NCBI RefSeq assembly: GCF_014075995.1
Contig: NZ_CP055153.1
Location: 1,178,001-1,242,000, forward strand
DNA length: 64,000 nucleotides
DNA from: Adhaeribacter radiodurans
GTDB taxonomy: Bacteria; Bacteroidota; Bacteroidia; Cytophagales; Hymenobacteraceae
Direction: 5' to 3'
In this document: piece after piece, positions 3,451 through 17,764 of the stretch
Layout of the letters: every line of letters starts with the position of its first letter
Numbering within the stretch: the first letter of the stretch is position 1
Made by a program: the position numbers and the translations under genes
Notes under the pieces: model-generated
Databases searched by the model: none
Told to the model about the DNA's origin: nothing
What the model saw: the letters and a program-made list of their open reading frames with translations, nothing else

Positions 3451-6400
3451 ATGCACAAATCTAGACTCATTTTTTACCTACTAACATTTTGCCTGGGAGT
3501 CTTCGGGGCAATAAATGTTCAGGCCCAAGGAAGGCAAATTACCGGAACCGTTACATCGGCCAAAGACAAGCAGGCTATTATCGGGGCAACTATCCTGGTT
3601 AAAAATACTACCACCGGTACTACCACCGATGCAGAAGGGAAATTTAGCTTGAACGTTCCGGATAATGCGACTTTGGTAATTAGTTATATTGGTTATACCA
3701 ACCGCGAAATTCCAGTAGGTAATCAAACAGCTATTAATATTACGCTGGAAGAAAATTCGGAAGCACTGGAAGAAGTAGTAGTTACAGCCTTTGGTATTAA
3801 GCGCGATGCTAAAAAACTAGGTTATGCTACATCTACTGTAAATACTGAGCAGTTAACAACTACCCGCACCACCAACGTGGGTAATAGTTTAGTAGGTAAG
3901 GTGCCTGGTTTACAGGTGCAGGCGCCACCTAGCGGTCCAGGCGGTTCTTCAAAAATCCGGATCCGGGGACAAGCTTCTTTCGGAGCTAACAACTCTCCTT
4001 TGATTATTGTAAACGGGGTGCCGATTAACAACTCTACTGGCGGCTCGGCTAACAGCGGCGGAACAGGTTATAACGGCGAAGCTCGTACTGATACCGGCGA
4101 TGGTCTGCAAAGTATTAACCCCGACGATATTGAATCCATGACGGTATTAAAAGGAGCGGCTGCTTCGGCGCTTTATGGTTTTAGAGCGGCAAATGGCGCT
4201 ATTATTATTACCACTAAATCTGGTAAAGGCCAAACCGGTATTGGGGTAGAGCTTAACTCTAACTTCCAGGCCGATCAGGCTTTAGATTATACCGATTTTC
4301 AATACGAATACGGCCAGGGCGAAAACGGCATCCGGCCGCAAGTACTCGAAGGCGGCCCTAACGCGGCCCGTGGTCCATCGACTGGTACAGGTACCTGGAG
4401 CTTTGGCGAGCGTTTTGATGGCCAGCCCACTATTGCCGTAGATGGTCAAATGCATCCTTACAGCCCTTATAAAAACCGGGTGAAAGATTTTTATCGCACT
4501 GGTACCACCTGGACTAATTCGGTTGCTTTAAGCGGCGGCAGCGATAAAGGTAATTTCCGTTTATCTTTCGCCAATACCAATGCTAACAGCATTATTCCAA
4601 ACTCGGAGTTCAACAAGAAGATTTTAAATTTTGGTTTAACTTATAACCTGACCGATAAGCTATCTACGCAGTTTAACGCCAACTACTCGAACGAGTACAA
4701 CAAAAATCCTCCCGTTGTAGCGCAGCAGGATTATAACATTAACCAAACAGTTTATACCATTGCCAATAGCATAGATGTAGCCTGGCTGGAAGCGGCTTAC
4801 CAGAATGCCGCTGGTAACGAAATTCACCCATCCCGTTTCACGAACCGTACTAACCCGTACTGGAGTATTAATAAGCGTTTAGAGGAAAACCGCCGCGACC
4901 GGATTTTTGGTAATGCGTCAATCCGTTATCAGTTTACTCCCTGGTTATACGCGCAAGGTCGGGTAGGGCAGGATTATTTTACTAACCCCTACAATGCCAA
5001 TCGCCCAACGGGTACAGCCTTCTTAGTTTCGGCCACTACAGGGTTTAACGGTAACTTTTACCAAAGAGAAAATACCTTCCGCGAACGCAACTTAGACTTC
5101 TTAGTTGGGCTTAACCGCGAATTTGGCAAGTTTGGTATTGATGCTACCTTCGGAGGTAACTCCATGGACATTAAAACTACCAGCCTGGGTACGTCGGTAA
5201 CTAACTTCTACGTGCGTGACCTGTATACCATCGGCAACGGCCAGGTAAAAGAGCCTACTGCGTCTTATTCCCAGAACCGGGTAAACTCCTTGTTTGGTAC
5301 CGTAGATTTCTCGTTTAATAACTACTTGTTTTTAAATTTAACGGGCCGTAACGACTGGTTCTCTACTTTAAATCCTGAGTCGAACAACTATCTGTATCCA
5401 TCTATCAGCTCCAGCTTTGTGTTCAGTCAGGCGTTCCCAAGTTTGCCAGCCTGGTTAAACTATGGTAAGGTTCGGGTAGCTTACGCCGAAGTAGGCGGTG
5501 CGACCGATCCGTATTCTAACGCTTTATTCTATAACATCAACGCGAACCCGTTATCAATTAATGGCAGCAACTATGCTTTAGGTAATATTTCTGGTTCTGT
5601 TAGCCCGAACCCGAACTTACGGCCATTGAGCGTGCGCGAAGCCGAGGCTGGTATTGAATTAAGAACTATGGATAACCGCATTAATTTAGACTTTAGCGTT
5701 TACCGGAAAAACACCGTGGATGAAATCCTGAACGTGGATATCTCGAATACTTCTGGTTATAACCAAACTAAAGTAAACGTAGGTAAATTAAGAAACCAAG
5801 GTATTGAGGCTTTATTAACTTTAGAACCCGTACGTTCCGAAGCTATTACCTGGACCAGTGCCTTTAACTTTACTATTAACAAAAGCGAAGTTCTGGAGCT
5901 GGCTAATAACCAAACCCGCTTCGACGTAGCCAATGCGCAAGATTTAGGTGCCTTTATCGGTTATGTGTCGCACGAAGTTGGCAAGCCTTTAGCTTCTTTG
6001 CGTGGTTTTGATTACAAGCGTGATGACCAAGGCCGTATTTTAACTGCCAACGGTCGTTTTTCACAGGGTAATTTAGTGACTTACGGCAGCGCCATTCCTA
6101 CGCACACTGGTGGTTGGTTAAACACCGTTAATTTCAAAGGTTTCCGCTTATTTGCTCAAATTGATTTTAAAGCGGGTCATAAGTTAATTTCTAACTCTAA
6201 CTTTAACTGGTACCGCCATGGCTTGCACAAAGCCTCTTTGGTTGGCCGCGAAGGTGGGGTAGTAATGCCAGATGCGGTAAACGCCGATGGAACGCCCAAC
6301 ACTACTCCCGTACCAGCTCAAGAATTTTACAATAACTACCGCAGCGTAAACGTAACTACCCCATTTGTTTACAACGCTAGCTTCGTGCGTTGGAGAACCT

Positions 6401-6618
6401 TGTCTTTAGGCTATGACTTAACACGGTTCGTGAACAAGTCATTTGTGAAAGGTTTAGCCGTTAATGCCTTTGTAAACAACGTTTTCATTATTAAAAAATA
6501 TGTCGACAACCTGGATCCGGAAACCCAATTCTCCGCATCTGACCTTAACACTGGTTTAGAGGCGCATGCCATGCCTACTACCCGCAGTTATGGTTTAAAC
6601 ATTAATATTAAGCTTTAA
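3451..6618 (+). CDS. SusC/RagA-family TonB-linked outer-membrane transporter
   Basis: The protein has 1055 residues, the usual size for SusC. It would form the TonB-dependent barrel that, with its SusD lid, imports oligomeric nutrients across the outer membrane. In order it shows a Sec signal peptide (about 1-25, ending VQAQ), a carboxypeptidase-regulatory-like domain (GRQITGTVTSAKDKQAIIGA, about 27-110), a TonB-box-like EALEEVVVTAFGIKR, the family motif KLGYATS, and a plug domain ending LYGFRAANGAIIITTKSGK. A long beta-barrel closes at the C terminus (TTRSYGLNINIKL). The susD partner follows after 6 bases (15 if its internal start is used). Ligand specificity cannot be read from the sequence. 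The RraA and enolase-superfamily genes downstream suggest a sugar-acid-like ligand, which is inference. Confidence 0.96.
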   Translation: MHKSRLIFYLLTFCLGVFGAINVQAQGRQITGTVTSAKDKQAIIGATILVKNTTTGTTTDAEGKFSLNVPDNATLVISYIGYTNREIPVGNQTAINITLEENSEALEEVVVTAFGIKRDAKKLGYATSTVNTEQLTTTRTTNVGNSLVGKVPGLQVQAPPSGPGGSSKIRIRGQASFGANNSPLIIVNGVPINNSTGGSANSGGTGYNGEARTDTGDGLQSINPDDIESMTVLKGAAASALYGFRAANGAIIITTKSGKGQTGIGVELNSNFQADQALDYTDFQYEYGQGENGIRPQVLEGGPNAARGPSTGTGTWSFGERFDGQPTIAVDGQMHPYSPYKNRVKDFYRTGTTWTNSVALSGGSDKGNFRLSFANTNANSIIPNSEFNKKILNFGLTYNLTDKLSTQFNANYSNEYNKNPPVVAQQDYNINQTVYTIANSIDVAWLEAAYQNAAGNEIHPSRFTNRTNPYWSINKRLEENRRDRIFGNASIRYQFTPWLYAQGRVGQDYFTNPYNANRPTGTAFLVSATTGFNGNFYQRENTFRERNLDFLVGLNREFGKFGIDATFGGNSMDIKTTSLGTSVTNFYVRDLYTIGNGQVKEPTASYSQNRVNSLFGTVDFSFNNYLFLNLTGRNDWFSTLNPESNNYLYPSISSSFVFSQAFPSLPAWLNYGKVRVAYAEVGGATDPYSNALFYNINANPLSINGSNYALGNISGSVSPNPNLRPLSVREAEAGIELRTMDNRINLDFSVYRKNTVDEILNVDISNTSGYNQTKVNVGKLRNQGIEALLTLEPVRSEAITWTSAFNFTINKSEVLELANNQTRFDVANAQDLGAFIGYVSHEVGKPLASLRGFDYKRDDQGRILTANGRFSQGNLVTYGSAIPTHTGGWLNTVNFKGFRLFAQIDFKAGHKLISNSNFNWYRHGLHKASLVGREGGVVMPDAVNADGTPNTTPVPAQEFYNNYRSVNVTTPFVYNASFVRWRTLSLGYDLTRFVNKSFVKGLAVNAFVNNVFIIKKYVDNLDPETQFSASDLNTGLEAHAMPTTRSYGLNINIKL

Positions 6619-6633
6619 GCAATTATGATTTAC

Positions 6634-8151
6634 ATGAAAAAATATATATCCCTGGCATTTGCCGCTTTATTATTAAGCGTGAGTAGCTGCGACAAGGATT
6701 TCGAAGAAATTAACACTAATCCTAACCAGGCCCTCGACCTAGACCCAGTCTATTTATTAAACAACGCCCAATTTGCCTCGGGTAACCAATCCATGCATTT
6801 TTATGAAGGCAATATTGTGCAACAGGTAAATACGCCTTTTACTGGGGTAGTGGAGGCTGGTAACCACAACGTGCTTAACGATGCCAACACCCGCTCTTTA
6901 TGGAATGGCTTGTACGAAGGACCGGTACGAAATACGGTAGCCATTATCGAAAAAACCAAGGCAGATCCAGAGAAGAGTAACCTCTACAATATGGCCCGTA
7001 TTTTAAAGGCTTATAACTTTATTGTACTGGTAGATACGTACGGCGACGTACCTTACTTTGAAGCGGGTAAAGGTTTTCTGGAAAGCACTTACCTACCAAA
7101 ATACGACGATCAGAAAGCCATTTACGATGATATCCTGAAGGAATTAGAAGAAGCTACCGCTGCTTTGGACCCCGCTAAACCTACAGTTACCGGTGGCGAT
7201 ATTTTCTACAATGGCAATGTTGAAAAATGGAAGAAATTAGGTAATTCCTTGTTGTTGCGCGCAGCCATGCGTTTCACCGAATTAGACCCAGCCAAAGCAG
7301 ATCAGTGGGTAGACAAAGCCGTGGCTGGACCATTAATGGTTTCTAACGAGGATAACGCTTTTGTTAAGTTTAACTCGCCCGCTTACGTGCACCCAACCAC
7401 TGCCGGACTTACCGCTACTGAAAAAGCTAACTTCTTCGCTGGTGAGCCTTTTGTTAACTACCTGAAAACCTACAACGATCCCCGGTCGCCTTACATTGTG
7501 GTGCGGTACTCGCAACGCGGTTCCGATACTGGTGGCGATATGAACACGAATTTGGCGGATCAGTTTGGCTTGCCTTACGGGTATTCGGATGTAACCTTAC
7601 CAACTGCTCCGGGTTACCGCGGTTCTTTGGATGCCTACTCGCAATTCCGTCGTAACACCGTATTAAACCAAAATTCGCCGGAGTTTTTAGTAACCTTCGC
7701 TCAAACTCAATTATTATTGGCTGAAGCAGCTCAAAGAGGATTTATTGACGGTGATGCTAAAAACTACTATGAAACCGGTATTAAAGCGCACATGGACCAA
7801 CTAAAAGGCTATGATGCTACCATTGATATTCCGGAGGACGTGAAAAATGCTTACGTGCAGCAACCCGGTATTTTGTTCGATCCGGCTACTGCTTTGGAGC
7901 AAATTAATACGCAGTATTGGGTAGCTTCTTTCCGGAGCTGGTCCGAAGCCTGGGCTAACTTCCGCCGTACGGAGCTGCCTAGATTGCAGCCTATTAACTA
8001 TCCTGGCGAAGATGTTTCGGTAAAAGGAGGCTTTATCCGTCGCTTAGTTTATCCGAACCGCGAAGTATCCGTGAACCAGGCCAACGTGAACGAAGCCATT
8101 ACCCGCATGGGCCCTAATGTATTGGGTACCCGTTTGTTCTGGGATAAATAG
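6634..8151 (+). CDS. SusD/RagB-family nutrient-binding outer-membrane lipoprotein
   Basis: This is the surface lipoprotein that caps the SusC barrel and binds the nutrient. Two starts are possible, ATG 6625 and ATG 6634. I prefer 6634 because it gives a compact signal MKKYISLAFAALLLSVSSC with the lipobox Cys at residue 19. Mature acidic residues follow the Cys (CDKDFEEINTNPNQ), typical of surface-exported Bacteroidota lipoproteins. The rest fits the SusD-like TPR fold of the group with the EEINTNPN signature and a C-terminal WVASFRSWSEAWANFRRTELPRL block. The length of about 505 residues is normal. It is co-transcribed with susC and ends at a strong hairpin. Confidence 0.95.
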   Translation: MKKYISLAFAALLLSVSSCDKDFEEINTNPNQALDLDPVYLLNNAQFASGNQSMHFYEGNIVQQVNTPFTGVVEAGNHNVLNDANTRSLWNGLYEGPVRNTVAIIEKTKADPEKSNLYNMARILKAYNFIVLVDTYGDVPYFEAGKGFLESTYLPKYDDQKAIYDDILKELEEATAALDPAKPTVTGGDIFYNGNVEKWKKLGNSLLLRAAMRFTELDPAKADQWVDKAVAGPLMVSNEDNAFVKFNSPAYVHPTTAGLTATEKANFFAGEPFVNYLKTYNDPRSPYIVVRYSQRGSDTGGDMNTNLADQFGLPYGYSDVTLPTAPGYRGSLDAYSQFRRNTVLNQNSPEFLVTFAQTQLLLAEAAQRGFIDGDAKNYYETGIKAHMDQLKGYDATIDIPEDVKNAYVQQPGILFDPATALEQINTQYWVASFRSWSEAWANFRRTELPRLQPINYPGEDVSVKGGFIRRLVYPNREVSVNQANVNEAITRMGPNVLGTRLFWDK

Positions 8152-8198
8152 TTTTAAAATCCGCCTGGTTGCTGCTTGTAATCAGGCGGATTTTAAAA
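8152..8198 (+). terminator. Hairpin terminator after susD
   Basis: TTTTAAAATCCGCCTG pairs with CAGGCGGATTTTAAAA around a 15-base middle that can extend the stem by three pairs. It begins one base after the stop codon, so the susCD unit probably ends here or is attenuated before the rraA-like gene. Confidence 0.85.
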
Positions 8199-8332: not shown

Positions 8333-9298
8333 ATGAAAAAAGTATTTACTCTACTATTACTGGCTTCCTTTTTTATTCCTGTTTCTTTAACGCAAGCGCA
8401 ACAGATTTCGAAAGAAGAACTTGTTTTTTTAACCCCGGAATGGAAGGGGGAGCGCTTTCCGGATGGTCGTCCCAAAGTTTCGGATGACATTCTGAAGCGC
8501 ATGAAAGCGGTAAGTATTGAAGAAGCCTGGGCTACTATGGGAGGCACCCAATTTAATTACCAATTAGCAGAAGATTGGCCTGTTCGAATCAATCCGGACA
8601 GTGTACTAGTTGGCCGTGCATTTACTACTACATTTATGCCGTATCGCCCGGATATGTGGAAAGTAATAGACGAACGCGGTAAAAAAGAAGGCCGCCGTAA
8701 CCAGAACGTGTGGGGGGTAGAGCAACTGCAAAAAGGCGATGTATACGTGGGAAGTCAGTTTGGCTTGCACAAAAACGGACCTACCATTGGCGACCGCGTA
8801 GCCGCCGATATTTACAGAAGAACCGGTAATGGTATTATCTACGACGGTGCTATCCGGGATATTGAAGGATTAAAAGCCATGGGCCGGTTTACTTCCTATG
8901 TTACCAGCTATTCCCCCTCGTACCATAACCCGCGCAGCGATTTAAATACCATGATTATGGGCATTAACCAACCTACCCGCATCCGGCAGGTAACAGTTAT
9001 GCCGGGCGATATAGTATTGGGTAAAGAAGGTGTAGTTATTTTCATTCCGCCGCACTTGGCAGAAAAAGTAGTGAAAGCATCTGAAAAAACCCGCCTGGAA
9101 GACATGTTTGCCCATATTCGTACCGCAGAAGGTAAATATACCGCCGGGCAAATGGACGCGAACTGGCCGGCTGAAATTCAGAAAGATTATCTGGCCTGGT
9201 TAAAAGCCAGCGTGAAAGATAAAAAAATGAAATTACCGGTTGCTAAAGCTCAAGTCGAGGAAATTATAGCAACCAGTAGTGTTAATAATGTATTTTAA
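8333..9298 (+). CDS. Secreted RraA-family protein 1 (putative 2-keto-acid aldolase fold)
   Basis: The protein has 321 residues. A Sec signal peptide (MKKVFTLLLLASFFIPVSLT, cleavage near QAQ at about 23) is followed by a linker with LTPEWKGERFPDGRPKVSDD. The RraA/HMG-CHA aldolase domain then runs from about 90 to 265. The family core is intact: TIGDRVAADIYRR (Gly153-Asp154), GAIRD with Arg175-Asp176, the pyruvate/metal-binding pair in known RraA-type aldolases, and PGDIVLGKEGVVIFIPPHLA. Canonical RraA proteins are about 160 residues and cytoplasmic, so both the export signal and the N-terminal extension are unusual. Two paralogues lie downstream. It is followed after 41 bases by a Tat-exported enolase-superfamily gene. 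Aldolase activity is inferred, not shown. Confidence 0.88.
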   Translation: MKKVFTLLLLASFFIPVSLTQAQQISKEELVFLTPEWKGERFPDGRPKVSDDILKRMKAVSIEEAWATMGGTQFNYQLAEDWPVRINPDSVLVGRAFTTTFMPYRPDMWKVIDERGKKEGRRNQNVWGVEQLQKGDVYVGSQFGLHKNGPTIGDRVAADIYRRTGNGIIYDGAIRDIEGLKAMGRFTSYVTSYSPSYHNPRSDLNTMIMGINQPTRIRQVTVMPGDIVLGKEGVVIFIPPHLAEKVVKASEKTRLEDMFAHIRTAEGKYTAGQMDANWPAEIQKDYLAWLKASVKDKKMKLPVAKAQVEEIIATSSVNNVF

Positions 9299-9339
9299 AC
9301 TTTAACCTAAACACTTAGAAAATTCCTAATTTAAAATAT

Positions 9340-10632
9340 ATGTCAAATAAGCAAAATCGCCGCTCCTTTTTAGGTAAGCTTTCATTAGCTGGGGCTGCTG
9401 GTCTGTTAGGCGCTCCGGCCCTGGCTTCGGCTGGTACTGGTTTAGTTGGTGCTAAAGAAAGAACTTCGCACGCTTCCGCTCCCTCTGATCTGAAAATTAC
9501 CGATGTAACCTGTGCTTTTATTAAAGGTGGCCACGATTTAATTGTAAAGATTTCAACCAACCAAGGTATTGTAGGTTGGGGACAAGGGGTAGATGCCGTA
9601 GCCGGAACTTACTATATGGTAAAGCAATTGGGCAGCCGCTTAAAAGGCCAAAACCCATTAAACCCGAACCGCATTCAGGAAGATATGCGGAAAGGGGCTT
9701 TCTTTGGTGGCGCCCAGTCGGGGGTTTATGTAGCCGTAATGGGAGCAATCGAATCCGCTCTTTGGGATGTTACGGGTAAAGCATTAGGCCTGCCAGTTTA
9801 CCAATTATTAGGCGGTAAATTCCGCGATAAAATCCGGGTATATTGCGACACCGCGCTTTATACTTCACGTAACCCTACCCCCGATGATTATGCCAAATCA
9901 GCAAAAGGTGCCGTTGATAAAGGGTATACGGCAGTTAAGTTTGACATTGACGAAGGCAACGACCCGAACAAATACGACCGTTATAACTGGACTGCCAGCC
10001 CCGCTGAGCTAGACCGGATGTACAATGCCATTGCAGCGGTTCGGAAGTCAGTAGGACCCAAGATTGATATTTGCGTGGATATGCACGGCCGTTACGATGC
10101 CACTACGGGCCACAGAGTAGCTAAACTGATGGAGCCTTTAAACCTGATGTTTTTAGAGGAGCCCATTCCGGCCGATAACATGGACGTGTATAAAGAAATT
10201 ACTAAAAGCACCTCTACTCCGATTTGTGCCGGCGAAAACATGTATTTAGCTTACGGCTTTACCAAGGTTTTAGCAGATGGCGGGGTGGATATTATCATGC
10301 CGGATTTACAAAAAGTAGGTGGGTTAGGAGAAGGACAACGCATTGCTAATTTATCCAACTTGTATTATGTGCCTTTCTCGCCGCACATGGTAGCTACTTT
10401 CCTGGGAGCCATGGCCTCGGCTCACGTTTGTGCTTCCGTGCCAAACTTCCATATTCTGGAGTGGCAAACTTACATGGATACCGAGCAGATTTACAAAGAC
10501 GTAGTAAAATACGACAAACCATTCATAGAAAAAGGGTTTCTTACTGTTTCGGATAAACCAGGTGTTGGCGTAGATATTAATGAAGAAGGCTTGAAAAAAT
10601 ACCATCCGAAGGATATACCATTCTTTGTGTAA
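9340..10632 (+). CDS. Tat-exported enolase-superfamily protein 1 (galactonate-dehydratase-like)
   Basis: The protein has 430 residues. The twin-arginine signal RRSFLGK (residues 7-13) is followed by the hydrophobic AGAAGLLGAPALA. The mandelate racemase/muconate lactonizing enzyme N-terminal capping domain covers about 50-160, and the TIM barrel follows. Likely catalytic residues are Lys200-Phe-Asp202, Asp247-Met-His249 in VDMHGRYD, Glu273/Glu274 in FLEEP, Glu299 in CAGEN, Asp322 in MPDLQKVGG and His349 in FSPHM. The DxHGR signature resembles D-galactonate dehydratase-type members, which dehydrate sugar acids to 2-keto-3-deoxy acids. The substrate is unknown. The Tat signal predicts folding in the cytoplasm and action in the periplasm. 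It sits between secreted RraA 1 and a second enolase-superfamily gene. Confidence 0.9.
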   Translation: MSNKQNRRSFLGKLSLAGAAGLLGAPALASAGTGLVGAKERTSHASAPSDLKITDVTCAFIKGGHDLIVKISTNQGIVGWGQGVDAVAGTYYMVKQLGSRLKGQNPLNPNRIQEDMRKGAFFGGAQSGVYVAVMGAIESALWDVTGKALGLPVYQLLGGKFRDKIRVYCDTALYTSRNPTPDDYAKSAKGAVDKGYTAVKFDIDEGNDPNKYDRYNWTASPAELDRMYNAIAAVRKSVGPKIDICVDMHGRYDATTGHRVAKLMEPLNLMFLEEPIPADNMDVYKEITKSTSTPICAGENMYLAYGFTKVLADGGVDIIMPDLQKVGGLGEGQRIANLSNLYYVPFSPHMVATFLGAMASAHVCASVPNFHILEWQTYMDTEQIYKDVVKYDKPFIEKGFLTVSDKPGVGVDINEEGLKKYHPKDIPFFV

Positions 10633-10707
10633 AACATTCCTGCTTAAACTACTAAACTTTAATTTTTTTAAATTTTATTTTCATTACGCCTAAATTTTTA
10701 AAACTTT

Positions 10708-12207
10708 ATGAAAAGCATATTACAGAAGATTATTGCCCAGAACAAACAACAGGAGAAAGAAACGGCCGATGCCATGCAGGCCGAAATTAAAGATCCGCAA
10801 ACATCAGACAGTCGCCGCTCTTTTTTAAAAAAATCAGCTTTAGGTGGTATCTCGCTGGGTGCTTTTATGGGCCTTTCTTTTGAAGATACCATTGCTCAAA
10901 CTACTTCTAAAGTTAAGCGGGCATCTAATCCTTCGGAGTTAAAAATTACAGATATGCGTTATGCCTTAACCAGTGTGTTGGGCGGTACGGCTATTATCCG
11001 GATTGATACTAACCAAGGTATTTATGGTTTAGGCGAAGTACGGGACGGGGCAGATCCACGGTATGCGTTAATGCTGAAAAGCCGCATTCTGGGCATGAAC
11101 CCTTGTAACGTGGAAATGATTTTTAAAGCCATTAAGCAGTTTGGTGGTCAAAGCCGGCAGGCTGGTGGTGTTTGCGCTGTAGAAATGGCCCTTTGGGATT
11201 TATGCGGTAAAGCGTATAACGTACCCGCCTGGCAATTACTAGGTGGCCGCTACCGCGATAAAGTTCGCTTATACGCCGATACGCCGGAAGCGGGTTCGCC
11301 GGAAGAACAAGCTAAATTAATTAAATTCCGGACAGAGGATCAAGGATATACCTGGCTGAAAATGGATATTTCCATTGGCGAACTAAAAGGCAAACCCGGC
11401 ACCGTGGTAAACTCTAAATTCTGGGAAAATGCGCAGGGCAACTTGGCGCAGTGGGGCGACCAAAGCAATTACATGTCTTATGGCAATACCTTGCACCCAT
11501 TCACGCAAATTCAAATTACCGATAAAGGCTTTGAAGAATTGGCTAAAATTGCGGAAAATGTGCGCAGCATGGTGGGTTACGATATTCCGATTTCTACGGA
11601 CCACTACGGCCACTTCGATCATAACAACGGTATCCGGTTAGGTAAAGCTTTAGAAAAATACCGCTTAGCCTGGTTAGAAGATATCATCTCCTGGGAATAT
11701 ACTGATCATTGGAAAACCATATCGGATGCTTTAGAAACTCCAACTACTACCGGCGAAGATATTTACCTGCTGAAATACTTTAAGCCTTTAATTGACAAAA
11801 AAGCGGTTGATATTATTCACCCGGATTTAGCTAGTTCTGGTGGTTTATTGGAAACCAAGCGCATCGGTGATTACGCCGAAGAAGCGGGTATTGCCATGGC
11901 TATGCACCAGGCCGGTACGCCGGTATCATTTATGGCCAACGTGCATTGCGCGGCGGCTACGCAAAACTTCCTGGCGCTGGAGCACCACTCCGTAGATTTA
12001 CCTTGGTGGGAAAGTTTAGTAAAAACTACCGATGGCAGAAAAATGATTACCAAAGGTTACGCCAATGTACCGTTATCTGCTCCTGGGTTAGGCATTGAGC
12101 TAAACGAAGATGTGGTAAAACAACACCTGGATAAAAGAGATAAAACGTTTTTTGCCCCAACCAAAGAGTGGGATGAAAGACGTTCGCATGACCGTATATT
12201 TAGTTAA
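10708..12207 (+). CDS. Tat-exported enolase-superfamily protein 2
   Basis: The protein has 499 residues. A 35-residue hydrophilic N-region precedes the Tat motif SRRSFLKK (35-42) and the hydrophobic SALGGISLGAFMGL, with AQA-like cleavage near TIAQ. The enolase-superfamily domains follow from about 75. Candidate active-site residues are Lys218-Met-Asp220, Asp298-His299 in STDHYGHFD, Glu324 in WLEDI, Glu350 in TGEDIYL, Asp373 in HPDLASSGG and His400 in MHQAGTP. These depart from the DxHGR and LEEP pattern of the neighbour, so a different substrate is likely. It is a close paralogue of the gene at 16250. A strong terminator follows 4 bases after the stop. The dehydratase role is inferred from the family. 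Confidence 0.9.
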   Translation: MKSILQKIIAQNKQQEKETADAMQAEIKDPQTSDSRRSFLKKSALGGISLGAFMGLSFEDTIAQTTSKVKRASNPSELKITDMRYALTSVLGGTAIIRIDTNQGIYGLGEVRDGADPRYALMLKSRILGMNPCNVEMIFKAIKQFGGQSRQAGGVCAVEMALWDLCGKAYNVPAWQLLGGRYRDKVRLYADTPEAGSPEEQAKLIKFRTEDQGYTWLKMDISIGELKGKPGTVVNSKFWENAQGNLAQWGDQSNYMSYGNTLHPFTQIQITDKGFEELAKIAENVRSMVGYDIPISTDHYGHFDHNNGIRLGKALEKYRLAWLEDIISWEYTDHWKTISDALETPTTTGEDIYLLKYFKPLIDKKAVDIIHPDLASSGGLLETKRIGDYAEEAGIAMAMHQAGTPVSFMANVHCAAATQNFLALEHHSVDLPWWESLVKTTDGRKMITKGYANVPLSAPGLGIELNEDVVKQHLDKRDKTFFAPTKEWDERRSHDRIFS

Positions 12208-12210
12208 TTT

Positions 12211-12253
12211 AAAAATAAAGCGGATGGCCTTGCGGCTTTCCGCTTTATTTTTT
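12211..12253 (+). terminator. Terminator after enolase-superfamily gene 2
   Basis: AAAAATAAAGCGGA (12211-12224) and TCCGCTTTATTTTT (12239-12252) form a perfect 14-bp stem ending in a T run. Confidence 0.85.
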
Positions 12254-12320
12254 AGCTTTTATTTAAAAAGCCACTTCAGGCACCAGGAAAATTATTTCGT
12301 TACGAATAATAGTTTATACT

Positions 12321-13451
12321 TTGAAAAAGAACAGCATTTATAAAGTAGCCCTGGGGGTAGCAGCCGTTGCTCTGCTGGCGGCACTTGTATTTATTTTTAG
12401 CGGCAACAACGCGCAGGCGGGTCCTTTATTTATTTTATTTTTTGTTGCTTTAGGAGTTGGTTTCCGGGGTTTTGCCGTTACAAAAGGCTTTGCCTATACC
12501 ATGATGATTTTTGCTGCGGTAACTACCGCGCTCAATTTTCCGCAGTATTTCGTGGAAGTAAACGGATTTAAATTTGCCGCACTCATTACGCCACTTATTC
12601 AAATAATTATGTTTGGCATGGGTACCGAAATGGGTTTGAAAGATTTTGCCGGCGTTTTAAAAATGCCGAAAGCAGTATTAATTGGCTTAGTAGGTCACTT
12701 TACGGTAATGCCTTTGCTGGGATTTTCTCTTGCCAAAGCGTTTGGTTTTCCCCCGGAAATCGCGGCGGGTGTAGTTTTAATTGGCAGCATGCCTTGCGGC
12801 TTAGCGTCTAACGTAATGTCGTACCTGGCTAATGCGAATTTGGCTTTATCGGTAACCCTTACTGCAGTAGCTACTTTGCTGGCTCCTTTCTTAACTCCTA
12901 TGTGGATGAAAATTCTTGGTGGTCAGTTTGTGGAAGTGGATGTTCTGGATATGATGTGGGATATCGTGAAAATGGTGATTTTCCCGATTGGTGGCGGTTT
13001 GTTGTTCAACAAGTTTTTTAAAGGCAAAGCCGACTGGGTAGATAAAGCCATGCCTTTGGTTTCAATGATCGGGATTGCCTTTATTATTACCATTATTACG
13101 GCAGCTGGTCGCGATAACCTGATTGTTATTGGTCCGGCTTTAATCGTGTGCGCCCTTATCCATAATACCGGTGGTTATTTGTTCGGCTACTGGATTGGCC
13201 GTTTGTTTGGTTTAAAAGAGCGCGATGCCCGTACAATTGCCATTGAGGTGGGTATGCAAAACGGCGGTTTAGCTTCTGGATTGGCCAAAGAAATGGGGAA
13301 AGCCGCAACCATTGGTTTAGCTCCCGCAGTATTTGGTCCGTTAATGAACATAACCGGCTCTATCCTGGCCTCTTACTGGCACCGCAAACCGCCCCGCGAC
13401 GAGGAGGAAACCTTAAACCTGGAAGTGAATGAGCTAGCCGTTAAATCTTAA
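12321..13451 (+). CDS. Bile acid:sodium symporter (BASS) family transporter
   Basis: The protein has 376 residues with about ten hydrophobic segments, an inner-membrane carrier of the BASS fold. Known members move bile acids, pyruvate, pantoate or 2-keto acids with sodium. The start is a TTG at 12321 (reading MKKNSIYKVALGVAAVALLA). The first in-frame ATG falls inside the second hydrophobic region and would delete the first membrane helix, so TTG is preferred. Family-like features are the GTEMGLKDFAGVLKMPKAVL segment, GSMPCGLASNVMSYLANAN and EVGMQNGGLASGLAKEMG, the last resembling the sodium-site crossover. The C terminus is charged and cytoplasmic-looking. Placement among exported dehydratase- and aldolase-like genes suggests uptake of an organic acid product, which is inference. 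Confidence 0.9.
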   Translation: MKKNSIYKVALGVAAVALLAALVFIFSGNNAQAGPLFILFFVALGVGFRGFAVTKGFAYTMMIFAAVTTALNFPQYFVEVNGFKFAALITPLIQIIMFGMGTEMGLKDFAGVLKMPKAVLIGLVGHFTVMPLLGFSLAKAFGFPPEIAAGVVLIGSMPCGLASNVMSYLANANLALSVTLTAVATLLAPFLTPMWMKILGGQFVEVDVLDMMWDIVKMVIFPIGGGLLFNKFFKGKADWVDKAMPLVSMIGIAFIITIITAAGRDNLIVIGPALIVCALIHNTGGYLFGYWIGRLFGLKERDARTIAIEVGMQNGGLASGLAKEMGKAATIGLAPAVFGPLMNITGSILASYWHRKPPRDEEETLNLEVNELAVKS

Positions 13452-13519
13452 GCGGCATGCACCAGGTAAAATCCAGGAACCGGTAAAATTAAAAATTTTT
13501 ACAAATTGTAGATTTTTAG

Positions 13520-13951
13520 ATGAAAAAAATATATGTCTTGTGCCTCCTTTGGGTAGGACTTTCTTGGAGTAGTTGGGCGCAAACCGCCGATGAAAAGCAA
13601 GTAGCCGCTGCCGTAGAAATTTTTAAAAATGCCTTAACCACTGCCGATAAAAAATTGCTGGAGTCTATAACTGCCGACGAGCTAAGCTATGGACACTCCA
13701 GCGGAAAAGTAGAAGATAAGGCTGCTTTTGTGAATGGCGTATTAAACGACCCGATTAAGTTTAATATTATTGATTTACAAGATCAAACCATCCGGGTGGC
13801 GGGTAATACGGCTTTGGTGCGGCACGCTTTTAATGCCAAGATTACGAATAACGGTACGCCCGGCGAAATCAAAATCCGGAATTTACTGGTATGGCAAAAG
13901 CAGAAAGGGCAATGGAAACTTCTGGCCCGGCAAGCTTTTAAAGTGCCTTGA
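13520..13951 (+). CDS. Secreted NTF2-like (SnoaL/DUF4440-type) small protein
   Basis: The protein has 143 residues. The signal peptide MKKIYVLCLLWVGLSWSSWA has its cleavage point before QTADEKQ. One NTF2-like cone-shaped domain follows (about 22-140), with typical markers: an N-terminal helix (VAAAVEIFKNALTTADKKLL), the SYGHSSGKVEDKAAFV segment, IIDLQDQTIRVAGNTALVRH and a final LLVWQKQKGQWKLLARQAFK strand pair. Such domains bind small molecules or act as isomerase/dehydratase-like enzymes, but no catalytic set can be assigned. It lies 68 bases after the BASS gene and 129 bases before RraA 2, on the same strand, so it belongs to the island. Confidence 0.85.
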   Translation: MKKIYVLCLLWVGLSWSSWAQTADEKQVAAAVEIFKNALTTADKKLLESITADELSYGHSSGKVEDKAAFVNGVLNDPIKFNIIDLQDQTIRVAGNTALVRHAFNAKITNNGTPGEIKIRNLLVWQKQKGQWKLLARQAFKVP

Positions 13952-14080
13952 TTTTTAAATTTTAATCATTTTGGCTATGCCATACTGAGGTTTAATTAGG
14001 TTGTAATAATAGGAATTGCTCCCGTAAAAACCACAATAAATTATCTCACAACTTCCTTAATTTTAATAAACGAAAGTATA

Positions 14081-15013
14081 ATGAATAAGAAATTATTGCT
14101 AGTTGGCGCTCTTGCTTTAAGCGGATTTTTGGCAAATGCGCAAGTACGGGTAGGCTCCACGTCCGAAACAGTAAAAGCCTTGACTTCTAACTGGAAAGGC
14201 GAGCGTTTTCCGGATGGTCGCCCCAAAGTATCGGATTTAGTTTTGGAGCGTTTACAGAATTGTACTTTAGAACAAATTTGGGGTTATTTGGGCAATAAAG
14301 GCTACCGCAACCAGGTAGAGAAAAACTGGGTTATTTTAAAACCCGGCGAAACCATGACGGGCCGGGTAGTTACGGCGCAGTTTATGCCCACTCGCCCCGA
14401 CCTGGATAGTTTGGTAAGAGCCCAGGGCAAAGCCGAAGGCCGTTCGCAAAAAGGTGGTATTAACATCTGGCCCATCGATATTTTAACCAAAGGCGATATT
14501 TACGTGGCCGATGGATATGGTAAAGTAAAAGACGGTACTTTAATTGGCTCCAGCTTAGGTAACGCGATTTACGGCAAAACTGGCAAAGGCGTTATTTTTT
14601 ACGGCTCTATCCGCGACATGCAAGAATTAAAAGATACCAAAGGCTTTAACGCCTGGGTAAAAGGCCACGACCCGTCGTACATCAAAGACATGACGCCAGC
14701 TTCCATTAACGCACCTATCCGGATTGGCGAAGTTACCGTTTTCCCCGGGGATGTGGTGTTTGCGAACGAATATGGCGTGGTGTTTATTCCGGCGCACTTA
14801 GTAGAAGGTTTGGTTTCAGCTTCCGAAATGACCGCACTGCGCGACGAGTTTGAGCGGGTACTTTTAACGCAAGGCAAATATCCTTCCGGCGAAATTCACG
14901 GCGATTGGTCCGATAAAATTAAAGATGAGTTTAGAACCTGGATCGGAAAATATCCGAAGAAATTAGCCATCACGAAGAAAGACATTGAGGCTTACTTAGC
15001 TAAAGGTCATTAA
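14081..15013 (+). CDS. Secreted RraA-family protein 2
   Basis: The protein has 310 residues with a signal peptide (MNKKLLLVGALALSGFLANA, cleavage before QVR). It shares the SNWKGERFPDGRPKVSD linker with its two paralogues. The RraA domain retains Arg178-Asp179 (YGSIRDMQEL), GDIYVADGYGKVKDGT and PGDVVFANEYGVVFIPAHL. The Gly-Asp of classical RraA enzymes (GD in IGDRVA of paralogue 1) is Gly156-Ser157 here. That change in a position near the metal/pyruvate site could mean altered chemistry. Canonical RraA-type aldolases cleave 4-hydroxy-2-keto acids to pyruvate; whether this exported form does so is unknown. A long hairpin follows about 90 bases after the stop. Confidence 0.86.
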   Translation: MNKKLLLVGALALSGFLANAQVRVGSTSETVKALTSNWKGERFPDGRPKVSDLVLERLQNCTLEQIWGYLGNKGYRNQVEKNWVILKPGETMTGRVVTAQFMPTRPDLDSLVRAQGKAEGRSQKGGINIWPIDILTKGDIYVADGYGKVKDGTLIGSSLGNAIYGKTGKGVIFYGSIRDMQELKDTKGFNAWVKGHDPSYIKDMTPASINAPIRIGEVTVFPGDVVFANEYGVVFIPAHLVEGLVSASEMTALRDEFERVLLTQGKYPSGEIHGDWSDKIKDEFRTWIGKYPKKLAITKKDIEAYLAKGH

Positions 15014-15105
15014 TCAATAAAAGCTAATTGTTGCTTTTAAACAGATGCTTTTTTAATTTTTTGCGTTTGTTTTTTATTTGGCCTTTTATTTCATAAGATT
15101 ATAGC

Positions 15106-15160
15106 CTGGTTAGTTAGCCAAATCTGTCTTAAGATTTAGTTAACTAACCAGCTTGTTTTT
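15106..15160 (+). terminator. Long hairpin between RraA genes 2 and 3 (terminator or attenuator)
   Basis: CTGGTTAGTTA (15106-15116) pairs perfectly with TAACTAACCAG (15141-15151). The stem continues inward through AAATCT/AGATTT with a short internal mismatch and a six-base loop. CTTGTTTTT follows. Its position shows that the upstream alternative start at 15153 of the next gene is not used. Confidence 0.75.
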
Positions 15161-15188
15161 ACCAATCATTCATTTAATTACAAACCTA

Positions 15189-16121
15189 ATGAATTTTAAA
15201 ATTTCATTCGTAGTACTTTCTGCTGTAAGCCTTTTTGGTTTTAAATCTTTACATGCCCAAACAATTTCAAAAGAAGAACTTACCTTTTTAACTTCGGAGT
15301 GGAAGGGCGAGCGCTTCCCGGATGGTCGCCCGAAAGTGGCGGAAAGCTTATTGGAAAGAGCGAAGAAAGTTGGTATTGCCGATGCCTGGACCGTTTTAAA
15401 AAATGAAGGTTACCTGAACCAATACGAAGGCAACTGGAAAACTGTAGACGATGTAACGCCGGTAGTAGGTCGGGCGGTAACCGCCCAGTTTATGCCTAGC
15501 CGCCCCGATGTAGAAAAAAGCATTCTGGACCGTGGTCAGAAAGTACAGGGTCGCAAAGGCGCTTCTAACTCCTGGCCCATTGATGTACTCGTGAAAGGCG
15601 ATGTGTATGTAGCCGATGGTTTTGGTAAAATTGGCGGGGGAACCTTAATGGGCGCTACGCTGGCTAATTCTATTTATAATAAATCGGGTAATGGTGTTGT
15701 GTTTAACGCGGCTGCTCGCGACCTCGAAGAAATTCAAACCATAAAAGGATTCAACGCATTTGTGCGCGATTGGCACCCGTCGTTTTTAGAAGGCAGCGTG
15801 TTAACCGGTTTAAATACACCCATCCGGATGGGCAACGTAATGGTAATGCCTGGCGATTTAGTAATTGCCAAGCGCGAAGGTGTATTGTTTATTCCGGCGC
15901 ATTTGGCTGAACAAGTTATTAGTACCTGCGAATTCGTAATCCGGAAAGATAAGTTTGGTATTGAAATGATTAAAGCCGGTAAATATTCTGCCGGCCAAAT
16001 TGATAGTCAATGGAACGATCAGTTGAAAAATGATTTTCTGAAATGGTTAGGCCAACATCCCGAATTGGGCACCATGACCAAAGCCGAAGTAGACAAAGTA
16101 ATGAGCAAAAGAACCTGGTAA
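15189..16121 (+). CDS. Secreted RraA-family protein 3
   Basis: With the start at ATG 15189 the protein has 310 residues and a clean signal peptide (MNFKISFVVLSAVSLFGFKS, cleavage near LHAQ). An in-frame ATG at 15153 would add 12 residues but sits in the tail of a terminator hairpin. The paralogue linker TSEWKGERFPDGRPKVAES is present. The RraA domain keeps Arg177-Asp178 (NAAARDLEEI) and PGDLVIAKREGVLFIPAHLA, but the classical Gly-Asp is Gly155-Ala156. Together with RraA 1 and 2 it forms a triplicated family with stepwise divergence at this position. It is closed by its own terminator and followed by the third enolase-superfamily gene. Confidence 0.87.
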   Translation: MNFKISFVVLSAVSLFGFKSLHAQTISKEELTFLTSEWKGERFPDGRPKVAESLLERAKKVGIADAWTVLKNEGYLNQYEGNWKTVDDVTPVVGRAVTAQFMPSRPDVEKSILDRGQKVQGRKGASNSWPIDVLVKGDVYVADGFGKIGGGTLMGATLANSIYNKSGNGVVFNAAARDLEEIQTIKGFNAFVRDWHPSFLEGSVLTGLNTPIRMGNVMVMPGDLVIAKREGVLFIPAHLAEQVISTCEFVIRKDKFGIEMIKAGKYSAGQIDSQWNDQLKNDFLKWLGQHPELGTMTKAEVDKVMSKRTW

Positions 16122-16139
16122 ATTTTTTTTTAAATTTTT

Positions 16140-16170
16140 AAAAAGCTGAAAGAAATTTCAGCTTTTTTTA
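16140..16170 (+). terminator. Terminator after RraA gene 3
   Basis: AAAAAGCTGAAA and TTTCAGCTTTTT form a perfect 12-bp stem (16140-16151 with 16156-16167) closed by a GAAA tetraloop, and T residues follow. Confidence 0.88.
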
Positions 16171-16249
16171 TTTCTACACCAATTTAATCTTGTTTGTAGC
16201 TTGCTTTTTTAGTATCATCAGCAATAAAAATCATAAACAGCTAAAGTAA

Positions 16250-17764
16250 ATGAAGAGCATACTTCAACAATTAATGGCTGCTAATCAGGCCAACGAGAAT
16301 GGACAAAAAATGGCTGCGCAAGCCGAAATGAGTAATCCGCTCACAACCCCCGCCCGACGAAATTTTTTAAAAAGGACTGCGTTGGGTGGTATTTCTTTAG
16401 CTGGTTTCCTGAATTTTTCGCTGGAAGATACCCTGGCCCAAAGTACCGCCAAAGTAAACCGGGCTTCGAACCCTTCGGAATTAAAAATAACGGATATGCG
16501 CTACGCTACGGTTTCGAATGGAACCTCGTTCACCAACGCGCGCAACGTTATCATCCGGATAGATACCAACCAGGGTATTTATGGTTTAGGCGAAGTACGG
16601 GATGGGGGAGATGCCCGCTACGCGCTGTTTCTGAAAAGCCGGCTTCTGGGTCAAAATCCTTGCAACGTTGAAATGCTCTTTAAAACAATTAAGCAATTTG
16701 GTAATCATGGCCGTTTGGGCGGCGGCGTTAGCGGCGTAGAAATGGCGCTCTGGGATTTAGCGGGTAAAGCGTACGGCGTTCCGGTTTGGCAACTGTTGGG
16801 CGGGCGTTATCGCGATCAGGTGCGGCTTTATTCGTACGTGCCCGGGCACTCGGTTACGAACATGGACGTGGCCAAATTTAAAGCCGATATTAAACACCGC
16901 ATGGAAGAGCAAGGGTTTACCTGGTTAAAAATGCACCCCGGTATACAAGTGTACAGTAGTATTCTGGGAACTACGGTAAATACCAAGTTTGTACCTGGCT
17001 TCGGCACCGATGATCTGAGTTTTGGTTCCTACCAAAGTACGCGCCATCCGTTTACCGCCATTCAGGTAACCGACAAAGGACTAGACTTGCTGGCCAAATA
17101 CGTGGATACTATTCGGTCTATTGTGGGTTACGAGGTTCCATTATCCGCCGATCACATGGGGCATTTCGACGTGAATAACTGTATTCGGGTAGCGCGGGCC
17201 CTTGAACCTTTCCGGATGGCCTCCCTGGAGGATTTTGTGCCTTGGGATAGCACCGACCAGTTAAAAACCATTACCGATGCCATCACCACGCCCACCATGA
17301 CTGGCGAGGATATTTACTTAAAAGAAACCTTCCAGAAGCTCTGCGATGTGCGCGCCGTAGATATTGTGCAACCCGATATGGGAAGTTCCGGCGGTATTCT
17401 GGAAACTAAAAAGATTGGCGATTACGCCGAAGAAAAAGGTGTAGCCATGGGCCTGCATTTTGCCGGTACCCCCGTTTGCTTTATGGCTAATGTACACAGC
17501 GCCGCTGCTACCCAAAACGTATTAGCCCTGGAAGTACCAAACCAGATAGTCGATAATCCGTGGTGGCCCACTTTAGTAAAAATGGTAGGCAAACAACCAT
17601 TGTACACCAAAGGCTTCGCGCACGTACCTTTAGATGCACCTGGTTTAGGCGTAGAATTAAACGACGAAGTGATGAAGCAACATCTGCATAAAGAAGACAC
17701 TACCTATTTCCGGCCAACACCCGAGTGGAACGAAAAACGCTCCCACGACCGGATTTTTAGTTAA
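16250..17764 (+). CDS. Tat-exported enolase-superfamily protein 3
   Basis: The protein has 504 residues and is a paralogue of the gene at 10708, sharing MKSILQ at the start, a 35-residue hydrophilic N-region, the Tat motif ARRNFLKR (35-42) and the end WNEKRSHDRIFS. Predicted active-site residues are Lys227-Met-His229, Asp301-His302 in SADHMGHFD, Glu327 in SLEDF, Glu353 in TGEDIYL, Asp376 in QPDMGSSGG and His403 in LHFAGTP. The second residue after the catalytic Lys is His here but Asp in the paralogue, so the two probably differ in substrate or stereochemistry. Insertions (ILGTTVNTKFVPGFGTDDLS region) distinguish both from protein 1. A 15-bp terminator closes the island. Confidence 0.9.
   Translation: MKSILQQLMAANQANENGQKMAAQAEMSNPLTTPARRNFLKRTALGGISLAGFLNFSLEDTLAQSTAKVNRASNPSELKITDMRYATVSNGTSFTNARNVIIRIDTNQGIYGLGEVRDGGDARYALFLKSRLLGQNPCNVEMLFKTIKQFGNHGRLGGGVSGVEMALWDLAGKAYGVPVWQLLGGRYRDQVRLYSYVPGHSVTNMDVAKFKADIKHRMEEQGFTWLKMHPGIQVYSSILGTTVNTKFVPGFGTDDLSFGSYQSTRHPFTAIQVTDKGLDLLAKYVDTIRSIVGYEVPLSADHMGHFDVNNCIRVARALEPFRMASLEDFVPWDSTDQLKTITDAITTPTMTGEDIYLKETFQKLCDVRAVDIVQPDMGSSGGILETKKIGDYAEEKGVAMGLHFAGTPVCFMANVHSAAATQNVLALEVPNQIVDNPWWPTLVKMVGKQPLYTKGFAHVPLDAPGLGVELNDEVMKQHLHKEDTTYFRPTPEWNEKRSHDRIFS

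Follow-up and report, generated by a model that had tools for sequence, protein, structure and literature searches.

Where does a member of the Bacteroidota break down sugar acids when both its candidate dehydratases and its candidate lyases appear to carry export signals? Ten genes of the soil bacterium Adhaeribacter radiodurans raise this question. They lie in a 64,000-nucleotide stretch (positions 1,178,001 to 1,242,000 of NZ_CP055153.1, hereafter the window) of a genome of 6.94 Mb in 2 contigs, and in them three RraA-like and three enolase-superfamily proteins are encoded beside a SusC-SusD pair and a carrier of the bile acid:sodium symporter (BASS) family. The core reactions of sugar-acid breakdown are as a rule assigned to the cytoplasm. 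Our reading, to which we give a probability of about 0.62, is that the enzymes form a sugar-acid set relocated to the far side of the inner membrane, where RraA would act on a 2-keto-3-deoxy acid; this figure overlaps with the odds of the first two rival explanations weighed below (RraA as a second dehydratase, and import of the whole keto acid), which share most of the module. The strongest argument for RraA acting on such an acid is that replaceable families predicted to form 2-keto-3-deoxy acids meet at RraA. As far as sequence can speak, it supports the family assignments, the predicted export signals, a conserved neighborhood, the replacement of partners by unrelated families, and a metal-site motif.

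The ten genes, from susC to the third enolase-superfamily gene, all lie on the + strand with intergenic gaps of 6 to 181 bp, and the features are as follows.

3451..6618, + strand: SusC-type TonB-linked outer-membrane transporter (TIGR04056 at 654.8 bits, above its cut-off; CarbopepD_reg_2 and Plug domains).
6625..8151, + strand: SusD-like protein (PF12771 at 281.4 bits), starting 6 bp after SusC.
8152..8198, + strand: terminator- or attenuator-like hairpin in the susD-rraA1 gap, a 20-pair stem followed by a T-rich tail.
8333..9298, + strand: RraA1 (P0001), PF03737, leader of the general secretory (Sec) type, D-X20-R-D form.
9340..10632, + strand: ENOL1 (P0002), MR_MLE_N and MR_MLE_C, leader of the twin-arginine translocation (Tat) type, galactonate-dehydratase-like, D-x-H-G-R on strand 3.
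10708..12207, + strand: ENOL2 (P0003), Tat-type leader with a long n-region, variant D-H-Y-G-H.
12321..13451, + strand: PanS-like carrier of the BASS family (P0004), PF01758 (SBF) at 140.6 bits.
13520..13951, + strand: exported NTF2/SnoaL-like (DUF4440) protein, PF14534 at 63.5 bits.
14081..15013, + strand: RraA2 (P0005), PF03737, Sec-type leader, S-X20-R-D-X2-E form.
15189..16121, + strand: RraA3 (P0006), PF03737 at 64 bits, Sec-type leader, A-X20-R-D-X2-E form.
16250..17764, + strand: ENOL3 (P0007), Tat-type leader, variant D-H-M-G-H, 62-63% identical to ENOL2.

The preliminary description of this DNA had reported three Sec-type RraA proteins, three Tat-type enolase-superfamily proteins, susCD, and a BASS carrier on one strand; domain matches and leaders agree with it, and its interval of 8333..17764 runs exactly from the start of RraA1 to the end of the third enolase-superfamily gene. 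The NTF2/DUF4440 gene at 13520-13951 is a member that it had left out. The open reading frame of RraA3 opens with TTG at 15153, and the ATG at 15189, 12 codons in, is the likelier start, as judged on translation. PF03737 (RraA-like) is matched by RraA1-3 at 50.4, 69.3, and 64 bits against a cut-off of 24.5, and both MR_MLE_N and MR_MLE_C pass their cut-offs in ENOL1-3. The galactonate dehydratase model NF010624 is the best NCBIfam match of the three enolase-superfamily proteins, with scores of 257.6 (ENOL1), 167.2, and 184 bits, all below its cut-off of 311; by sequence, the closest solved chain to ENOL1 is 2qq6.

Export signals were scored by motif and hydrophobicity, without a trained predictor. 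RraA1-3 each begin with a hydrophobic N-terminal leader that ends near Ala-Gln, and the enolase-superfamily N-termini contain RRSFL (ENOL1), RRSFL (ENOL2), and RRNFL (ENOL3); the genome also encodes TatC (215 bits). A leader scan of 164 exported-type RraA proteins set aside 13 that have no GER anchor, and a hydrophobic 12-mer lay upstream of the anchor in 149 of the 151 scored, one miss being truncated and the other just under the cut. An RRxFL-type motif was found in 131 of 138 enolase-superfamily proteins; the seven misses comprise three truncated sequences, two with RRDAM, and two without a leader (L085 and L086), the one from L085 being nearest to glucarate dehydratase, below its cut-off. 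Among UxuA proteins, 13/14 carry an export motif. The export signals originally noted for the window therefore seem to be general across relatives.

Conservation of the neighborhood was assessed in two sets of loci, read over approximately 9-10 kb on each side and in some cases cut by contig ends. A scan of species genomes gave at least 566 relatives of the exported RraA, of which the best 80 were read; these represent the closest relatives and not a phylum average. An even sample of the phylum covered 392 genomes, of which 46 matched and 25 (window genome included) did so with E < 1e-75, and it yielded 34 strong loci, the window genome excluded, that come from 24 genomes and are not independent. 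As controls, we used 20 of about 33 weaker-match RraA loci of the phylum. They are a mixed set in which 6/20 loci contain an RraA resembling FlDet, a characterized RraA-family enzyme discussed below, and 10/21 RraA proteins have leader-like starts, mostly those of another exported family, so they control for the RraA family and not for export. Neighbor families were defined by profiles built from clusters and seeds, with only some members checked against Pfam or NCBIfam, and reading frames were called as the longest ones from ATG, GTG, or TTG; calls in the high-GC L164 appear erroneous, and some genes could have been overlooked.

In the best 80 loci, enolase-superfamily genes occur near RraA at 70, BASS at 41, SusC at 26, SusD at 24, FecR at 18, sigma factor genes at 14, UxuA at 10, NTF2 at 8, carriers of the major facilitator superfamily (MFS) at 6, pyrroloquinoline quinone (PQQ) dehydrogenase at 5, and DgaE at 2; at least one of enolase, UxuA, and DgaE is present at 73. 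The 34 loci of the even sample have enolase at 24, BASS at 17, SusC at 5, SusD at 2, and UxuA, DgaE, and PQQ dehydrogenase at 4 each, with some family expected to form 2-keto-3-deoxygluconate (KDG) or a similar acid at 28. SusCD is therefore a frequent neighbor among the closest relatives and an infrequent one in the even sample. Near the control RraA loci, enolase, UxuA, DgaE, PQQ dehydrogenase, and BASS were each found at 0/20 (SusC at 3, FecR at 1), and the even sample differs from the controls with Fisher p values of 1e-7 (enolase) and 5e-5 (BASS), without correction for kinship. At 68/80 of the best loci, no more than 500 bp separate RraA from an enolase gene (58 on the same strand, 10 on the other); the even sample shows this at 23/34 (20 and 3, respectively). 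Chance clustering is ruled out by the control loci. The genome search proposed with the preliminary description therefore finds the neighborhood conserved, with enolase near 24/34 exported-RraA loci against 0/20 other RraA loci.

The partners themselves point to sugar acids as the probable substrates. Enolase-superfamily sugar-acid dehydratases, UxuA, and glucosaminate ammonia-lyases belong to unrelated families whose characterized members form 2-keto-3-deoxy acids; for UxuA and DgaE, we assume the family reactions beyond what the model names state. One relative (L030) has the order SusC-SusD-UxuA-RraA-PQQ-RraA-BASS without an enolase gene, and UxuA likewise occurs without enolase at L050 and L064. 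Four further loci without enolase (L140, L141, L145, and L165) have a Tat-type PLP enzyme of the DgaE family, an exported amidohydrolase, and BASS near RraA, as well as RidA in three of them (not found in L141); TIGR01437 is the best model for the DgaE-family enzyme, which scores below its cut-off. DgaE and enolase occur together at L053 and L057. Since three unrelated KDG-forming families meet at RraA, often with BASS, RraA itself probably handles a 2-keto-3-deoxy acid. PQQ dehydrogenase was found near 9/114 exported loci (both sets together), and cytochrome c domains are present in the single protein scanned; five PQQ dehydrogenase genes occur in the window genome. An exported degradation path, as first proposed, is upheld insofar as the neighborhood is conserved beyond chance, the proteins bear export signals, and UxuA, DgaE, and PQQ partners supply a sugar-acid context. 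As a separate observation, the six loci with exported DgaE-type ammonia-lyases may represent an exported route for amino-sugar acids.

A second locus of the window genome (C2:2262001-2302000; L133 and L134) contains PQQ dehydrogenase, sigma factor, FecR, SusCD, three Tat-type UxuA, and NTF2 genes, followed by a further PQQ dehydrogenase gene and, together with SusC and SusD, three genes of the enolase superfamily; two of the five PQQ dehydrogenase genes are thus located here.

On our reading, SusCD would bring a sugar-acid-bearing ligand into the periplasm, where a PQQ dehydrogenase, whose gene is seen near the set in some relatives, could make an aldonate from an aldose. Tat-exported metal-dependent dehydratases (here the enolase superfamily, in some relatives UxuA) would, judging by family, yield a 2-keto-3-deoxy acid, on which the Sec-exported RraA would act, and BASS would import the resulting 2-oxo acid. 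For the RraA reaction, retro-aldol cleavage to pyruvate and an aldehyde is the single likeliest candidate, at somewhat less than even odds, and a second dehydration comes next, at appreciably lower odds. It is tentatively suggested, at odds well short of even, that an entire non-phosphorylative Entner-Doudoroff-type route is located beyond the cytoplasm, with PQQ oxidation, Tat-exported dehydration, cleavage by RraA, and import of pyruvate by BASS, having arisen from a cytoplasmic RraA-dehydratase set and including a new strand-3 variant of the dehydratase. In such a route, the variant would be that of the commonest enolase partner, and an exported DgaE-type lyase with RidA, deaminating amino-sugar acids, would provide an alternative entry.

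Evidence on the RraA reaction itself is mixed. The exported RraA proteins have the RraA fold with a metal-site motif of class II pyruvate aldolases, for which we take D-X20-R-D and small-X20-R-D-X2-E to be the two forms; the second in its usual form has Gly, where most sequences here have Ser or Ala. All three window proteins carry R-D plus an acidic metal-site partner. Among 165 RraA sequences, R-D is kept in 164, and exactly one of the two acid forms is present in 157 (neither acid in 7, both in 1). Structural alignment with 4-hydroxy-4-methyl-2-oxoglutarate/4-carboxy-4-hydroxy-2-oxoadipate (HMG/CHA) aldolase gives a matching fold at approximately 20% identity; that enzyme belongs to an aromatic 4,5-cleavage path. 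The nearest assayed relation by chemistry is FlDet of Flavobacterium sp. UMI-01, likewise an RraA-family protein of the Bacteroidota that acts on a 2-keto-3-deoxy sugar acid, being a 2-keto-3-deoxy-D-glucarate dehydratase/decarboxylase that is inactive on KDG (PMC8563752). FlDet was purified from cell extract as a protein of 237 aa with an N-terminus that has no leader, and works with an aldehyde dehydrogenase (ALDH), in which it differs from the proteins studied here (PMC8563752). Given the behavior of FlDet, the metal motif cannot be taken as proof of an aldolase. The aldolase originally claimed is accordingly supported in its fold and class II metal-site motif, and is called into question in its reaction. 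A role in RNase E regulation was set aside, as leaders are present and the genes sit with those of exported enzymes.

Several observations weigh against our reading. FlDet is unaffected by EDTA and yet is activated by Mg, Co, and Ni (PMC8563752). The tree contains a weak link (93/62) between the exported RraA proteins and alphaproteobacterial RraA paired with mandelate racemase (MR)-type genes of the enolase superfamily. BASS at 17/34 and SusD at 2/34 of the even-sample loci indicate that neither the carrier nor SusCD is constant, and 7/80 and 6/34 loci, several of them at contig ends, have no KDG-forming family. KDG-kinase-like (KdgK-like) genes occur near 4/114 exported loci (L037, L047, L065, and L152) and 2/20 controls (L172 and L175), and genes resembling that for 2-keto-3-deoxy-6-phosphogluconate (KDPG) aldolase (Eda) near 2/114 (L037 and L152); the kinases of L037 and L152 and the aldolase of L152 were checked by model scan. 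Finally, the long enolase clade (499-504 aa) has D-H-Y or D-H-M in place of D-x-H on strand 3, which we take to be a dehydratase signature (its role and the strand numbering are assumed). In the short type, the strand-3 His is at +2 in 25/27 proteins; in the long type, it is at +2 in 2/78 and at +1 in 76/78. Standard dehydratase chemistry in all three window enolases is thereby called into question, the strand-3 D-x-H being present in ENOL1 and changed in the other two copies, ENOL2 (D-H-Y) and ENOL3 (D-H-M). The N and C domains with their Asp/Glu/Glu metal ligands are present, and across 105 enolases, the strand-3 Asp, the first Glu, and the strand-7 His are kept in all, with the second Glu and the strand-8 Glu kept in 103.

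The rival that survives best retains the exported set and has RraA carry out a second dehydration, which may or may not be coupled to decarboxylation; as in Weimberg-type paths, the product would be an alpha-keto semialdehyde, and no aldol cleavage would take place. We consider it unlikely, though still a serious competitor. FlDet makes alpha-ketoglutaric semialdehyde (KGSA) (PMC8563752), and both an FlDet-like RraA beside ALDH (L176) and a Rhizobium MR-RraA-ALDH arrangement (L201) fit. The window genome also has a KGSA-dehydrogenase-like gene that is 55% identical to that of L176, although it lies in another locus, beside a gene of the fumarylacetoacetate hydrolase (FAH) type and a sugar importer of the ATP-binding cassette (ABC) family. 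An L176-type ALDH was found near just 1/114 exported loci (L024), for which reason KGSA is disfavored as the usual product. The 32 tree rows of exported RraA form one clade (100/100) apart from the FlDet-like rows, for which L172-L177 stand in, in place of the FlDet sequence itself, and RraA2 is 25% identical to the L176 protein. At L200, moreover, DapA-type and ALDH genes lie beside those for L-arabinonate dehydratase (AraD) and RraA, which argues that RraA is not needed there as a dehydratase.

This other locus of the genome (L209; C2:4886001-4904000), where FAH-type, KGSA-dehydrogenase-like, and sugar ABC importer genes lie side by side, looks like the end of a cytoplasmic pentose-oxidation path, with names assigned by eye from translations.

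Slightly less probable still is the explanation that the exported dehydratases make a keto acid which BASS imports whole for KDG kinase and KDPG aldolase, leaving RraA an accessory role on a lactone, enol, or side-product. The KdgK- and Eda-like genes counted above fit this explanation, as do MFS carriers near 6/80 loci, that of L045 being nearest to the D-galactonate transporter model, below its cut-off. Against it, the kinase-like genes are few and also occur near controls, the R-D motif is kept in nearly every RraA, and the window genome has four RraA genes; its adjoining KdgK- and Eda-like genes are located at a different SusCD locus, which also has an MFS carrier gene. The carrier itself is nearest to the PanS model of NCBIfam, at 237.4 bits against a cut-off of 400. 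Import of the intact 2-keto-3-deoxy acid is thus a live alternative to pyruvate import, because kinase- or aldolase-like genes lie near some loci and the genome has its own KdgK-Eda pair. The initial claim that only a small product enters the cell is weakened by the kinase-like genes near 4/114 loci, which fit intact import, and is relieved in part by their presence near 2/20 controls.

An aromatic or lignin-derived acid path, in which RraA would be a true HMG/CHA aldolase and the enolase-superfamily proteins lactonizing enzymes, is improbable. The fold matches, and an RraA protein is reported among benzoate genes of a Dyadobacter (PMC12584681). However, no dioxygenase or other aromatic-ring gene was found among the ten window genes, the partners in relatives belong to the UxuA, DgaE, PQQ dehydrogenase, and KdgK families, and galactonate dehydratase is the best NCBIfam match of the enolases. 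Least probable of all is that the annotation misleads and the exported proteins bind or sense without substrate turnover: some RraA models describe RNase E regulators, the E. coli RraA protein presumably lacks lyase activity, and strand 3 is changed in the long enolase clade, yet the enolase residues named above are kept in 103 to 105 of 105 and an RraA acid lies on one side or the other in 157/165.

Counterparts without leaders were found in Alphaproteobacteria. A tblastn search of RraA2 against plasmid records returned 502 records, mostly from Rhizobium and Sinorhizobium, and 13 regions were hand-picked from two lists of these (12 annotated; L204 unannotated). An enolase-superfamily gene adjoins RraA at L193, L197, L198, and L201, adjoins an unannotated RraA match at L196, and lies about 5.5 kb from RraA at L199. 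L-arabinonate dehydratase adjoins RraA at L192, L194, and L195 and is part of the run AraD-DapA-ALDH-RraA at L200; at L192, the order is RraA-NTF2-UxuA. No dehydratase adjoins RraA at L202 or L203. The RraA, NTF2, UxuA, AraD, and MR proteins of L192-L196 all fall under the leader cut of 1.8, the highest being the L195 RraA at 1.72. Since pairs of this kind without signal peptides occur in Alphaproteobacteria, export is the unusual feature in Bacteroidota. Several pairs are accompanied by ABC genes: in the Rhizobium operons of L193, L197, and L198, sugar ABC genes lie upstream and the enolase-superfamily gene directly precedes RraA. These resemble the window in the pairing of the two families and differ in the L193 MR and RraA proteins having no leader and in ABC import replacing SusCD and BASS.

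Compared with D-galactonate and D-mannonate dehydratases (PRK14017, ManD), the window enolases share the fold and, in ENOL1, the strand-3 D-x-H, whereas they differ in their Tat-type leaders and scores below equivalog cut-offs and, in ENOL2 and ENOL3, in having no D-x-H. The SusC-SusD pair is common to Sus-type polysaccharide utilization loci, although no Pfam match to a carbohydrate-active enzyme turned up in the ten window genes. Non-phosphorylative paths of the cytoplasmic type with many enolase-superfamily paralogues have been proposed for SAR202 (PMC10444878). Among the matches listed in a search of open-licence papers, no description of exported RraA together with exported sugar-acid dehydratases was found. 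If our reading is true, Bacteroidota perform carbon-skeleton chemistry before uptake, which bears on product sharing with neighbors and on the turnover of sugar acids in soil. It would also give a route to assigning function to many exported proteins named only as RraA family or mandelate racemase family, and would make an altered active site of the enolase superfamily accessible to experiment.

Some minor observations concern the same families. The hairpin at 8152..8198 is suggestive of a possible attenuator between susD and rraA1, with terminator-like hairpins in the region at shuffle level (21 against a shuffle mean of 21.0). NTF2 homologues occur near 11/114 exported loci (8/80 and 3/34) and at L133; the gene between RraA and UxuA at L192 (Terrarubrum) is annotated as nuclear transport factor 2 family and may be a homologue of the window protein. 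Viral contigs queried with RraA2 gave no relative. The fourth RraA of the window genome, encoded elsewhere, bears a similar leader, and the profiles used detect neither an enolase nor a BASS gene in its surroundings. A second leader-bearing RraA family of the Bacteroidota, marked by 'RVADVxDxxDxVGL' (L178, L179, L181, L183-L186, and L188-L190), forms one clade (100/100) with no enolase or BASS genes nearby. In five genomes of the same class, an FlDet-like RraA without a leader (L172-L175 and L177) adjoins a family of proteins of approximately 315 aa that begin with a signal-like stretch. Among the best 80 of at least 566 relatives, the closest locus with a species name is that of Adhaeribacter rhizoryzae (L014), with 91% identity to RraA2. 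In Adhaeribacter aquaticus (L027), three RraA genes are surrounded by nine genes of the enolase superfamily, all on one strand, and the locus end truncates one of the nine.

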